From the NCBI GenBank assembly GCA_026168805.1, contig JAPFDS010000017.1, positions 1 to 64,000 on the forward strand: DNA of 64,000 nucleotides. The letters run 5' to 3'. Position 1 is the stretch's first letter. Every line of letters starts with the position of its first letter. The notes under the pieces were generated by a model. It searched no databases. It was not told the DNA's origin and was given only the letters and a program-made list of their open reading frames with translations. The DNA comes from Caryophanales bacterium (GTDB taxonomy: Bacteria > Bacillota > Bacilli > Bacillales > Amphibacillaceae). The translations under genes and the position numbers were made by a program. Positions 10,736-52,270 of this stretch are shown in pieces.

Positions 10736-10900
10736 GGGACGAGAAATCGCGTACACTACCTGGTATCTGACGCGCAGACGAATCCAGGGACGAGAACAAG
10801 CGCACGCTACCTGGAATCTGACGCGCGGACGAAACCGGGGACGAGTAGACCCGATACACTACCTGGAATCAGAAGCACAAACAAATCCGGGGACGATTCA
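10736..10900. repeat. Tandem array A, 51-bp period
   Basis: Three imperfect units and a partial fourth. The anchor GGGACGA occurs at 10736, 10787, 10838 and 10890, giving spacings of 51, 51 and 52. A constant CTACCTGG and a GACGCGC core recur within units. The array lies between two convergent genes, each with its own terminator, and no gene overlaps it. Sequence is more GC-rich than the flanks. Confidence 0.9.
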
Positions 10901-10917
10901 AAAAATCCCCCTCAAAC

Positions 10918-10955
10918 AAAAAGTACCTCTCCCATTTCTGGTTGAGATACTTTTT
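10918..10955 (-). terminator. Terminator after the prolyl oligopeptidase gene
   Basis: On the minus strand AAAAAGTATCTC pairs with GAGGTACTTTTT, ending in a T-run just downstream of the stop codon. Confidence 0.8.
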
Positions 10956-10967
10956 ATCATTCATTTT

Positions 10968-12989
10968 TTACTGTAATTCCTTATCTAAAAACGCAAAGAA
11001 ATCGACCCATTCATCAATCACTTTGCTAACAGGCTTCCCTAATCCATGCCCAGCTTTAGCTTCCAGTCGCAAAACAACCGTGGAATCAGGATGTGCTTTT
11101 TCCAGCAATGTTGCCGCAAACTTTTTCGCATGTGCTGGTACGACGCGGTCATCGCTTTCTGCTGTCGCAATGAGGACTGGTGGATATGTCGTTCCTTCTT
11201 GAATGTTGTGTAAGGGCGAGTAGGCATATAGAAATGGAAAGTCGCCTTCCTTTTCTGCATTTCCATATTCCGGAATCCAGTACCGACCAATCGTAAATTT
11301 ATGATAGCGTAACATATCGATTACCGGTACTCTACAAATGACTGCTCCAAATAAATCTGGACGTTGCACCATACATGCCGCTACGAGTAATCCGCCATTG
11401 GATCCGCCTGTAATGGCCAACTTCTCCTTACTCGTATAGTTGTTTTCAATGAGCCACTCGCCGGCCGCGATAAAATCATCGAACACATTTTGTTTATGTT
11501 CAAGCATTCCTGCGCGGTGCCACTCTTCCCCATATTCATCTCCACCGCGTAAGTTTGCTACTGCGTAGACTCCGCCTTTCTCCACCCATCGTAAAATTGC
11601 CGGATTAAATGCAGGTGTTAAACTAATGTTAAATCCACCATATCCATTTAAAAGAACAGGGTGTTGACCGTTTAATTCGAGTCCTTTTCGATGGGTTAAA
11701 AACATTGGAATCATTGTACCATCTTTTGAAGGATACATCACTTGCGTTGTTTCGAACCCATTTGTATCTACCGGAAGGCTTGTCTCTTTCAGAACCTCTG
11801 TCTTCTGTTCATTCGAATGATAGACATATGTAGTCGTAGGATGGAGATAGGATTCAACTCCAAAAAAGATTTCTCCTGATTCTTTACTCCGATTCATTCC
11901 TGTCAATGAAACCATTCCATCGAGCTCAATCTCATGAGAGTATGTTCCTTCTTTATCATACACATGAAGAACATGATGTGCGTCTTCAACAAAAGCAATG
12001 ATCCATTCTTCATTCAAATAGACGACAGCTGCCATAGCTGATTTTTGTTCAGGAACAATTTCTTGCCAATGTTCTCTTCCAGATTGATTGAGGTCCACCT
12101 GAATAATTCGCCCATTCGGTGCCTGATGATTCGTTTTGAAATAGAATATAGAGCCTTCATTTGTAATGTAGGAATACTCTGCATCTTGCTCATCTAGCAA
12201 ATGTACAAATGATTCCTCCCCAAACTTTTGCACATAAAAGCGGTTTTCCGCAGCTGTTCCTTCATTCACATGCAAGCATAAATATTCCTCATCATCACTC
12301 ACCAATGCTTGAAACATCAATTCCTTTTCATCCGGTCGTTCATAAATCACCTGATCCTCTGATGAATCTGTACCTAACGTATGAAAGTATACTTTGTTAA
12401 AGTTGTTTTCATCTTCTTTTTCGACCGTCCCTGGTGTAGGAAAACGGCTATAGTAAAACCCTGAGTCGTCTGGTGTCCAAGCAAGACCTGAGAACTTTAC
12501 ATGTTCAATAACGTCTCCAGTATCTTCTTTTGTCTCAATATCTCGCACACGGATTTCTTGTTCATCACTTCCGTGGGTCGATACGGAATACGCTACAAAT
12601 TTGCCGTTATTTGAAACCCCATAGTTTATGAGAGCAACTGTGCCGTCATCACTTAATGTATTCGGATCAATGAATGCAACAGGTTCTTCCCCTTCATCTT
12701 GCATATATAACACGGCTTGATTTTGCAGTCCAGTATTTTTCTGAAAAAACAGGCGACCATTGACCTTTTTAGGCACGCCGAATTTTTCATAATCCCATAA
12801 TTTTGTTAAACGTTCCTTATCCTCTTCACGCACATCCCCATCAGAAAAATACGCTTCACAATCTTTTCCCATCCCTTGCACCCATTCTTTTGTTTCATCT
12901 GAATTCGGGTCCTCAAGCCACCGGTATGGATCAGCAACTTTTGTTCCGTGAAAATCTTCTACGATGGTATCTTTTCGTGCAACGACCAT
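10968..12989 (-). CDS. Prolyl oligopeptidase (S9A family)
   Basis: 673-residue serine peptidase: a seven-bladed propeller (about 70-400) in front of an alpha/beta hydrolase domain. The nucleophile Ser is in TGGSNGGLL, the Asp in ESDDRVVP and the His in KAGHGLGKP. The N-terminal DPYRWLEDP is diagnostic. No signal peptide, so cytoplasmic cleavage of short proline-containing peptides is expected. The ATG follows AGGAGG at a good distance. In B. subtilis this slot between ydcA and cshA holds ydbST, so it is a local replacement. Confidence 0.95.
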   Translation of the reverse strand: MVVARKDTIVEDFHGTKVADPYRWLEDPNSDETKEWVQGMGKDCEAYFSDGDVREEDKERLTKLWDYEKFGVPKKVNGRLFFQKNTGLQNQAVLYMQDEGEEPVAFIDPNTLSDDGTVALINYGVSNNGKFVAYSVSTHGSDEQEIRVRDIETKEDTGDVIEHVKFSGLAWTPDDSGFYYSRFPTPGTVEKEDENNFNKVYFHTLGTDSSEDQVIYERPDEKELMFQALVSDDEEYLCLHVNEGTAAENRFYVQKFGEESFVHLLDEQDAEYSYITNEGSIFYFKTNHQAPNGRIIQVDLNQSGREHWQEIVPEQKSAMAAVVYLNEEWIIAFVEDAHHVLHVYDKEGTYSHEIELDGMVSLTGMNRSKESGEIFFGVESYLHPTTTYVYHSNEQKTEVLKETSLPVDTNGFETTQVMYPSKDGTMIPMFLTHRKGLELNGQHPVLLNGYGGFNISLTPAFNPAILRWVEKGGVYAVANLRGGDEYGEEWHRAGMLEHKQNVFDDFIAAGEWLIENNYTSKEKLAITGGSNGGLLVAACMVQRPDLFGAVICRVPVIDMLRYHKFTIGRYWIPEYGNAEKEGDFPFLYAYSPLHNIQEGTTYPPVLIATAESDDRVVPAHAKKFAATLLEKAHPDSTVVLRLEAKAGHGLGKPVSKVIDEWVDFFAFLDKELQ

Positions 12990-13063
12990 TATACATTCCT
13001 CCTACAACTAGTTTGTCCATTGATTGTATATTACCATACGAACATTGTTTGCGCTTACAAATG

Positions 13064-50538: not shown

Positions 50539-51190
50539 TAGCACGCATCCTCCGTTCAATTCCTTTTCCAGCAAGTGTTAAGCCATAAACCATCACCCAA
50601 TAAATAAGTGCAACAAACAATAATGGTTCAAAATTATGGTACGTATTCGCTCCAACAATTTGTGCCCGGCGCATGAGATCCACGTAACCGATGACCGATA
50701 CAATTGCTGATTCCTTCGTCAACGTAATAAATTCATTCATTAAGGCTGGTAAAATATTTTTAATCGCTTGTGGCAGTATTATATTCATCATCATTTGGCG
50801 ATAAGGTACACCAAGAGCTGCTGCCGCTTCTGTCTGGCCACGATCTACTGCTAAAATTCCTGCTCGAATAATTTCAGATACATATGCGGATGAGTTCAGT
50901 CCAAATGCTAAAATTGCTGATACATATGGTGAAATATCATAGCCCGTTAATTGCGGAATGGCGATATAAATAATCATCAATTGCACAAGCAAAGGTGTAC
51001 CACGAAATATAGATGTATACACATCCGCAACAACTTTTAGTGGCCGAATGCTTCCTATTTTACAAATAGCAAGCAGTGTACCTAGTATGAAACCGATCAC
51101 AATCGACATACTTACAAATTTTAATGTCACCCATATTCCTTCCAAAATAAAAGGAATATAGGGCACGAGTAGGCTAAAATCCAACTTCAT
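50531..51190 (-). CDS. artQ: Polar amino-acid ABC transporter permease
   Basis: 219 residues, five helices. The EAA loop is EAAAALGVPYRQMMMNIILPQ. One permease gene only, so a homodimer is expected, as in B. subtilis ArtQ. It follows the binding-protein gene by 34 nt on the same strand. Confidence 0.92.
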   Translation of the reverse strand: MKLDFSLLVPYIPFILEGIWVTLKFVSMSIVIGFILGTLLAICKIGSIRPLKVVADVYTSIFRGTPLLVQLMIIYIAIPQLTGYDISPYVSAILAFGLNSSAYVSEIIRAGILAVDRGQTEAAAALGVPYRQMMMNIILPQAIKNILPALMNEFITLTKESAIVSVIGYVDLMRRAQIVGANTYHNFEPLLFVALIYWVMVYGLTLAGKGIERRMRASD

Positions 51191-51224
51191 GCCCTATCAC
51201 CTAACCTTTCCTTAGCGCGGCTAT

Positions 51225-51983
51225 TTACTCTGTGAGCCACTCCTCTTTTAATGCATCAATGGTTCCATCTTCCTCTAATTGCTCGAGCGCCTCATTTACT
51301 TCATCGACTAAGTCATTTCCTTTTGGAAAAGCAATAGCCATTCCCGGCGAACTTCTCGTTGGATCATCAAAGCCTACTAAATCTTGTGCTTCCATATATC
51401 CTCGGGCTACTTCTTTATCTAAATAAACAACATCAATTCGACCAGTCACAAGTTCTTGAATTAACATCCCCGCATCATCAATCTTTTTTACTTCAAATCC
51501 GTATTCATCTTGAATCTTCTCAGCACCTTCTTCTTGAATGGATCCAAGTTGAACACCGACTGTTTTCCCCTCAAATTGATCTACATCTGTATACTCATTG
51601 TCCTTTGTACTAATGAACATTTCTCCGGAGCGATTATACTCCATTGAAAAATCCACATTCTCTTTCCGGTCCTCTGTCGCACTCATTCCAGAAATAACAA
51701 AATCGACACGGTCTGCTTGAAGGGAGCTAATAAGTCCATCAAAACTCATATCTGTTATTTCAAGTTCATATCCTAACTCTTCTGCAATGGCTTTCGCTAA
51801 ATCAATGTCAAATCCTATAAAATCTCCATTTGTATCATGGGATTCAAAAGGTGGATAATCTGCCGAAGTAGCCATTTTAAGTGTTTTCTTTTCTTCACCT
51901 GAGGCTTTCTCCGTATCTCCACATGCAGCTAACATCAATAAAACACTTACTACCAATCCAATCATTCCTAATTTCTTTTTCAT
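51225..51983 (-). CDS. artP: Amino-acid-binding lipoprotein (ArtP-like)
   Basis: 252 residues. Lipobox LAAC near residue 21. The family-3 binding fold starts at KMATSADYPPFESHD and includes GFDIDLAKAIAEELGYE and KTVGVQLGSIQEE, as in B. subtilis ArtP for arginine. Substrate is inferred from similarity; other basic or polar amino acids are possible. First gene of artPQR-like operon, just downstream of repeat array D. Confidence 0.88.
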   Translation of the reverse strand: MKKKLGMIGLVVSVLLMLAACGDTEKASGEEKKTLKMATSADYPPFESHDTNGDFIGFDIDLAKAIAEELGYELEITDMSFDGLISSLQADRVDFVISGMSATEDRKENVDFSMEYNRSGEMFISTKDNEYTDVDQFEGKTVGVQLGSIQEEGAEKIQDEYGFEVKKIDDAGMLIQELVTGRIDVVYLDKEVARGYMEAQDLVGFDDPTRSSPGMAIAFPKGNDLVDEVNEALEQLEEDGTIDALKEEWLTE

Positions 51984-52035
51984 CGTATTTCCCCATTTCT
52001 ATTTATTTTTATTCTTTTTGTTGAATATTTCTCTC

Positions 52036-52270
52036 GGACCTCAAAATCGAGGGACTAAGACCTGGGATAGAACCTCAATTGCGAGTGGAACGCGAAATCG
52101 AGGAACTAAAACCCGGGATAACGACGCAATTCCGAGTAGACTGCTGAATTGAGGGACTAAAGCTATAGATAGTGCCTCAATTACAGATCAGTCTCAGAAT
52201 CAAGGAACTAACGCTTGCGATAGTCCCTCAATTCCGAGCAGGCCACGGAATCGAGGCACTTAGATTCCAC
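52036..52270. repeat. Tandem array D, 51-bp period
   Basis: Four anchors GATA at 52066, 52117, 52168 and 52219, exactly 51 bp apart. The units are more diverged than in array C but share CTCAATT.CGAG, CTGAATC.AGG.ACTAA, so C and D are the same family. It fills the space between the proS 3' end and artP, on the 5' side of artP. Confidence 0.93.

Follow-up and report, generated by a model that had tools for sequence, protein, structure and literature searches.

The first 64,000 nucleotides of contig JAPFDS010000017.1 (GenBank assembly GCA_026168805.1, a Caryophanales bacterium of the Amphibacillaceae), the whole of which is referred to below as the window, contain four intergenic tandem arrays, A to D, built from units of 51 bp. 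We find a ruler of 51 or 52 bp in five or more sequence classes and in four genera, with about 50 arrays in this genome and 9 to 10 same-class arrays in each of two other genomes. Length that is kept while sequence varies points strongly to a physical constraint. We give an even chance to the interpretation that the arrays are docking rows for dimers of a putative sequence-specific DNA-binding protein, spaced by about five helical turns along one face of the DNA.

Unit length and unit anatomy

In the window, Tandem Repeats Finder assigned a period of 51 to array A (10728-10896), array B (31907-32159, as 51 and 102), array C (47768-48038) and array D (52044-52241). Autocorrelation over the whole window (lags 30-159) returned only these four regions, each with 51 as the best lag, and a scan with wider lags returned them again together with one 12/18-bp repeat within an open frame at 25685-25809. 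In-register spacings were 51, 51 and 52 for A, four times 51 and then 50 for B, five times 51 for C and four times 51 for D, in agreement with a preliminary description of the window. Arrays C and D have motifs in common (class I), array B belongs to a separate class (II), and array A is at most weakly akin to C and D (class III versus class I, 16/32 positions, with 26/300 shuffles equally good), which upholds the grouping originally given.

The genome of this bacterium (3.24 Mb in 76 contigs) was searched by BLAST with each array, by profile searches and through a sample chosen by position; 11 related genomes were also sampled by position (1.6 Mb), from a family set of 159 genomes that includes this one. 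Unit length was analyzed in 50 arrays, namely 16 of the 27 of class I (those omitted were mostly short or degenerate), 16 of the 18 of class II, all 10 from the relative G004 (genus g3) and 8 of the 9 from G092 (genus g25). The modal period was 51 in all 32 arrays of classes I and II, and 52 in all 18 arrays of G004 and G092. With chains restricted to +/-3 bp around the mode, 304 of 330 steps had the modal length (68/72 in class I, 101/111 in class II, 78/86 in G004 and 57/61 in G092). Adjacent units differ by 4.5-13.3 substitutions per pair, and length changes per substitution amount to 0.006-0.018. Among seven class consensuses (21 comparisons), no pair showed convincing homology, the best being class II versus G092 (1/60 shuffles). 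Motifs that look unrelated, without detectable kinship, thus have one length in common.

The sample chosen by position in the own genome covered 545 kb and contained four intergenic arrays, all with a period of 51 or 52 (one of them, on contig C70, has an open frame throughout). Three other repeats in this sample, of 9, 21 and 42 bp, each lie in open frames. Within these stretches, autocorrelation scans passed over at least two class I arrays of degenerate sequence (C39:46299 and C68:41276). Period 52 is also found in the own genome, in two class III arrays and in both arrays of class IV. The sharp peak at 51 bp that had been anticipated across classes and genomes therefore holds as such for classes I and II (16/16 arrays each), but it has to be widened to 51-52 bp for class IV and for the arrays of G004, G092 and a third relative, G151, and some relatives have arrays of 20-21 or 40-42 bp.

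The same 50 arrays, representing four motif families in three genera, follow one unit plan: two inverted half-sites of ~10-15 bp, an inner spacer of 6-9 bp and an outer spacer of ~15-25 bp (Table 1). Inner and outer distances are near-constant within a class. Other values are rare and show no pattern, as expected from loose matching, and in one of the nine G092 arrays (L320) the second half-site had no match at the threshold used. Units had at first been divided into halves of ~25 bp with a loose similarity; there are indeed two copies per unit, but they are inverted and unequally spaced (23 + 28 in the class of C and D, 19 + 32 in that of B). Half-site columns are kept between arrays, and in each class 15-24 columns of the spacers show between-array differences of at least 0.6 (random, ~0.75). 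The spacers of G004 and G092 are likewise array-specific. Mean differences within and between arrays were 0.21 and 0.42 for class II, and 0.32 and 0.52 for class I. A fixed length over array-specific spacers, in several classes, supports the length constraint that had been suggested from the window alone.

Three causes had been offered for this length. About five helical turns fits the data. Seventeen codons does not: 18/32 arrays of classes I and II have stops in every one of the six frames, no single frame stays open across all 32, and these stops, together with the period of 52 in other classes, across which a frame cannot be kept, rule out a 17-codon protein repeat. Single arrays, C included, do have one open frame. 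In A, B and C some frame is stop-free across most or all of the array, none of which was taken by the gene caller; C is spanned by an open reading frame (ORF) of 135 aa that was not called as a gene.

The third cause, one fixed RNA fold, is disfavored, since the arms showed no covariation in any of four families (observed pairing 0.62, 0.82, 0.69 and 0.80, versus 0.65, 0.82, 0.72 and 0.81 with partners dealt anew). At several symmetric columns, pairing is rarer than it would be between independent columns, a pattern compatible with strand-composition drift at positions that tolerate change. The arms vary independently, and base-paired RNA or a cruciform is therefore not the thing conserved. 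An Rfam scan of the window (cmscan, gathering scores) returned nine tRNAs and one T-box, none within arrays A-D. Tandem terminators were also considered and rejected, as terminator-like sites lie beside C and D and not inside them; a stem followed by a T run was not found inside the window arrays, with none at A and a single weak one on the left border of B.

Dimer docking as a candidate mechanism

Conserved half-sites and fixed distances over random spacers, combined with arms that do not covary, are what operators for a dimeric protein on duplex DNA would give. We suggest that each inverted pair of half-sites binds one dimer as duplex DNA. A common sum of 51-52 bp, despite inner distances of 17-23 bp, is what contact between neighbors about five turns apart would give, and such contact between adjacent dimers may set the ruler. 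New units likely come from whole-unit duplication, after which the sequence of the spacer would drift and its length would not. Half-site and protein might change together, giving each species its own motif. The arrays could have a role in chromosome architecture or as insulators at gene ends, although this is the weakest step of the proposal.

Several observations weigh against this mechanism. The inner distance depends on the class (17 to 23 bp), and the total alone is common. Class III, with few arrays, is hardly more different between arrays (0.45) than within them (0.41). Whole-unit dyad symmetry was above that of shuffles in only 2/22 consensus units (array D, 0/1000; the C70 array, 11/1000). 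The other 20 fail this test because only the half-sites are symmetric, and a local test was used next; its result was clear in class IV, G092 and G004, marginal for single consensus units of classes I, II and III (equalled by 17, 28 and 19 of 300 shuffles), and lacking or weak in G151 (by 177 and 12 of 300). Five turns is not the sole spacing, as arrays of ~20-21 or 40-42 bp occur in G058, G052, G092 and G004. A class II model had no match in the other 158 genomes of the family among the candidates scored (at most 37 per genome), and no binding protein for the arrays was found.

A wider interpretation, which we offer tentatively and would rather doubt than endorse, is that the arrays are a bacterial satellite DNA in one Bacillales-like family, with species-specific dyads set on one five-turn ruler and read by fast-evolving dimeric DNA-binding proteins. 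If true, this would be a bacterial counterpart of the coevolution of satellites and centromere proteins. If a protein does read the arrays, it would represent a new chromosome-scale DNA-binding system of Gram-positive bacteria, and an array of fixed spacing would be a bait for it.

Genomic distribution and context

We catalogued 55 array stretches in the own genome (27 of class I, 18 of class II, 8 of class III and 2 of class IV), and two further stretches lie near the ends of contigs C5 and C16. Contig ends lead to some overcounting. C36 and C43 have 137 identical bp, likely representing one array, C5 and C38 have 141 identical bp, and common end sequences are found in C5, C11, C19 and C38. 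Since such stretches share sequence, the number of separate arrays is about 50 or more. Arrays were seen at or near the ends of contigs C5, C11, C16, C19, C36, C38, C43, C63 and C71; either the arrays or mobile elements that they contain may have interrupted the assembly and blurred the array count. A class I array and a class II array, the only two queried, had no match in plasmids or phages.

Table 1. Arrays of the window, consensus units of the classes, and terminator-like sites near arrays C and D
Feature	Window position	Strand	Unit	Distances (bp) or size	Context
Array A, class III	10728..10896	+	AATCCAGGGACGA ... CACACTACCTGGATT	~3.3 units x 51 bp	rhomboid / prolyl oligopeptidase genes, convergent
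Array B, class II	31892..32180	+	TTTTTAAACGCA-n9-TGCGTYTAATTTTT-n16	~5 units x 51 bp	thiolase / ABC transporter genes, divergent
Array C, class I	47768..48038	.	AATCNAAGCACTATC-n6-GATAGAGCTKCAATT-n15	5.3 units x 51 bp	rhodanese-domain gene / small lipoprotein-like ORF, convergent
Array D, class I	52030..52264	- (best read)	AATTGAGGNACTATC-n6-NTTAGTNCCTCGATT-n15	~4.5 units x 51 bp	solute-binding-protein / prolyl-tRNA synthetase genes, codirectional
Class I unit			AATnGAGGCACTATC-n6-GTTAGTGCCTnnATT-n15	23 + 28	
Class II unit			TTTTTAAACGCA-n9-TGCGTYTAATTTTT-n16	19 + 32	
Class III unit			AATCCAGGGACGA ... CACACTACCTGGATT		
Class IV unit			AGAGGTCATGA ... TCATGACCT		
G004 unit (genus g3)			CAAACGTTAAAGAT-n9-ATCnTTAACGTTTG	22 + 30	
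G092 unit (genus g25)			TGCACGTCAT-n7-ATGACGTGCA	17 + 35	
Terminator-like site	47709..47748	+			directly precedes array C, outside the array
Terminator-like site	52355..52383	-			where the prolyl-tRNA synthetase gene ends, outside array D

As originally described, all four arrays of the window lie between called genes, and the neighbors have ordinary functions; the end of array C overlaps the final 2 bp of a 97-aa ORF on the minus strand (48037-48330). Among arrays of the own genome with both neighbors called, 17/46 lie in convergent gaps, versus 20/193 background gaps of at least 150 bp, with a convergent share of 12/23 in class I, 2/2 in class IV and 2/14 in class II. Array B and 8 other own arrays lie in divergent gaps. 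None of 18 arrays in G004 and G092 does so, versus 24/100 background gaps.

Neighboring genes are of ordinary and diverse kinds. In a Pfam scan of 95 of the 102 neighbors in the own genome and 37 neighbors in relatives, no family recurred more than twice (2/95 and 2/37) and no DNA-binding gene was frequent among the top 25 families, out of 120 and 62, respectively. All-against-all comparison gave one group of four paralogs, the largest recurrent group, next to class III arrays of contig C59 (three paralogs) and a class II array at one end of C43 (one paralog). These four resemble small lipoproteins and not DNA-binding proteins. On C59, four class III arrays lie inside ~33 kb (4-37 kb), and the lipoprotein-like neighbors of three of them are 33-81% identical.

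Other features of the window were also noted. A long inverted element at 48394-48650 (AAAGAGGTTGGGACAAAT ... TTGTCTCAACCTCTTT, by eye), with GC-rich internal palindromes and resembling a miniature inverted-repeat transposable element, has array C on one side and a 60KD_IMP (YidC-type) gene on the other. The T-box leader (Rfam RF00230, 53906-54136) is located upstream of the minus-strand gene for prolyl-tRNA synthetase (52400-53851), and the nine tRNA genes are clustered on the minus strand at 181-1097.

Samples of 3 of the 11 relatives, G092, G004 and G151 (genus g42), contained 52-bp arrays of other sequence, and samples of the remaining 8 had no array of 51-52 bp. Searches that used the genomes' own arrays as query brought the count to 10 distinct arrays in G004 and 9 in G092, with period 52 in 10/10 and 9/9. 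G151 has two arrays of period 52 with one common sequence (by eye) and without a clear dyad. In G018 (same genus, 400 kb), G150, G134, G090, G141 and G055, the samples held neither 51-52 bp nor 20-21/40-42 bp intergenic arrays. G018 was too distant, with too little sample overlap, for an empty-site comparison with the own genome; its six matches to Y1 (IS200-type) transposases all score equally.

The shorter-period arrays (L260, L263, L258, L253, L251 and L270, in G058, G004, G092 and G052) may be a two-turn equivalent of those with 51-52 bp. A reading frame is impossible across 20- and 52-bp arrays; the 21-bp arrays could be coding. Remaining periods in relatives were 119- and 122-bp duplications, 12-bp repeats and repeats largely within open frames. 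The exact class I pattern is present in 11 other genomes and that of class IV in 7, in single copy each and often as terminator-like hairpins, and no 51-52 bp arrays surrounded these matches in the loci examined. The class II pattern had one match, a lone terminator-like hairpin, in a wider collection of genome contigs from which the records of the own genome were possibly left out.

Alternative explanations and known systems

The rival that survives best, although we consider it unlikely, is that the arrays are non-autonomous elements akin to repetitive extragenic palindromes (REP) and bacterial interspersed mosaic elements (BIME). A REPIN-like inverted pair would be moved as single-stranded DNA by a Y1 transposase (IS200/RAYT-type) and then amplified in tandem. 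The arrays do look like BIMEs, with inverted motifs that alternate, are extragenic and species-specific and are joined by array-specific linkers, as described in PMC2817692 and PMC8266576. Polarity points the same way. In G004, 6 arrays are oriented one way at 0.46-1.08 Mb and 4 the other way at 1.90-2.46 Mb, and the GC skew of the flanks agrees with orientation in 9/10. Agreement was found in 7/7 callable class III stretches of the own genome (of 8; four on one contig) and in 13/17 callable class II stretches (of 18; 12/16 if a split array is counted once). In class I, 15/27 were not callable and the rest followed no rule. Tandem REP arrays of SBW25 are also oriented by position (PMC3116915).

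Part of this polarity could, however, be strand composition of drifting bases; leading-strand purine bias could explain the polarity of class II and G004, and class III less easily. Polarity is not used as a basis of the dimer-docking mechanism. Other points also speak against the transposase model. There is no shared GTAG or CGTC tag beside the dyads and no arm covariation. Linker length is fixed here, whereas Stenotrophomonas BIME linkers vary in length (PMC2817692). REPs often have a cognate RAYT gene as a neighbor; here, Y1 transposase genes are ordinary in number, being present in 18/21 genomes searched, and the two intact Y1 genes of the own genome (contig C7 and C25:40211) have no array match nearby among the matches listed.

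Plain minisatellites, arising by neutral tandem duplication of a few ancestral units, with length inherited and under no present constraint, are improbable. Duplication would account for class I and II spacers that are alike within arrays and not between them, and the borderline similarity of classes I and III and the arrays at contig breaks would fit as well. Yet spacers are near-random between arrays while 50/50 arrays remain at 51 or 52 with conserved half-sites, and classes without clear homology share this length in four genera.

We think slightly less still of site-specific recombinase sites, in which each unit would hold a lox-like core (inverted arms of ~13 bp with 6-9 bp between them) and recombination would expand and shrink the arrays. 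Arm and spacer sizes do resemble tyrosine-recombinase cores, loxP having a 13-8-13 layout. However, within arrays the inner spacer is about as variable as the outer one, a variation that would hinder strand exchange, and no recombinase family appeared in the neighbor Pfam tallies (top 25 of 120 and of 62). Recombination would explain exact gain and loss of units, but not a common 51-52 bp across classes.

RNA-level elements, either tandem terminators or folded RNAs, are very unlikely: the convergent excess in the own genome, the lack of divergent arrays in G004 and G092 and the terminator-like hairpins among lone class I- and IV-like matches in relatives would suit them, but the arms do not covary, terminator-like sites flank C and D, B and 8 others are divergent, and the window arrays have no Rfam match.

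No description of such arrays was found among the titles and abstract openings listed by searches of the open-access literature. The closest known systems are BIME, REP and REPIN sequences, which in the cited papers are likewise inverted, alternating, extragenic, tandem and species-specific, with fixed distances in some REPIN groups and position-dependent orientation in SBW25. The arrays described here differ in having no common GTAG/CGTC tag, no arm covariation and no transposase link found, and in keeping one length of 51-52 bp over different motifs in four genera. By eye, no tetranucleotide is common to the classes; the consensus of classes I, II and IV and of G004 lacks GTAG/CGTC at the tag position, and in class III and G092 half-sites these letters occur within the arms only. 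Because tag, compensatory changes and transposase link, by which the cited papers recognize REPs, are absent or were not found, and because linker length is fixed, we did not file the arrays as BIMEs. BIME-2 arrays bind gyrase (PMC2817692). By analogy, the present arrays may work in a BIME-like way as protein platforms.

Three other systems invite comparison. Clustered regularly interspaced short palindromic repeats (CRISPR) form regular tandem units with a partly palindromic repeat and spacers of fixed length, each spacer being unique, whereas here spacers are copies of each other within an array and one genome holds ~50 arrays. Iteron and operator arrays also consist of repeated protein sites phased to the helix, but dozens of the present arrays are scattered over the chromosome and are not tied to one origin or promoter. 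Bacterial variable-number tandem repeats and minisatellites are, like these arrays, intergenic tandem repeats with duplicated units; what sets the present arrays apart from them is that half-sites are conserved and that length is invariant across arrays and genera.

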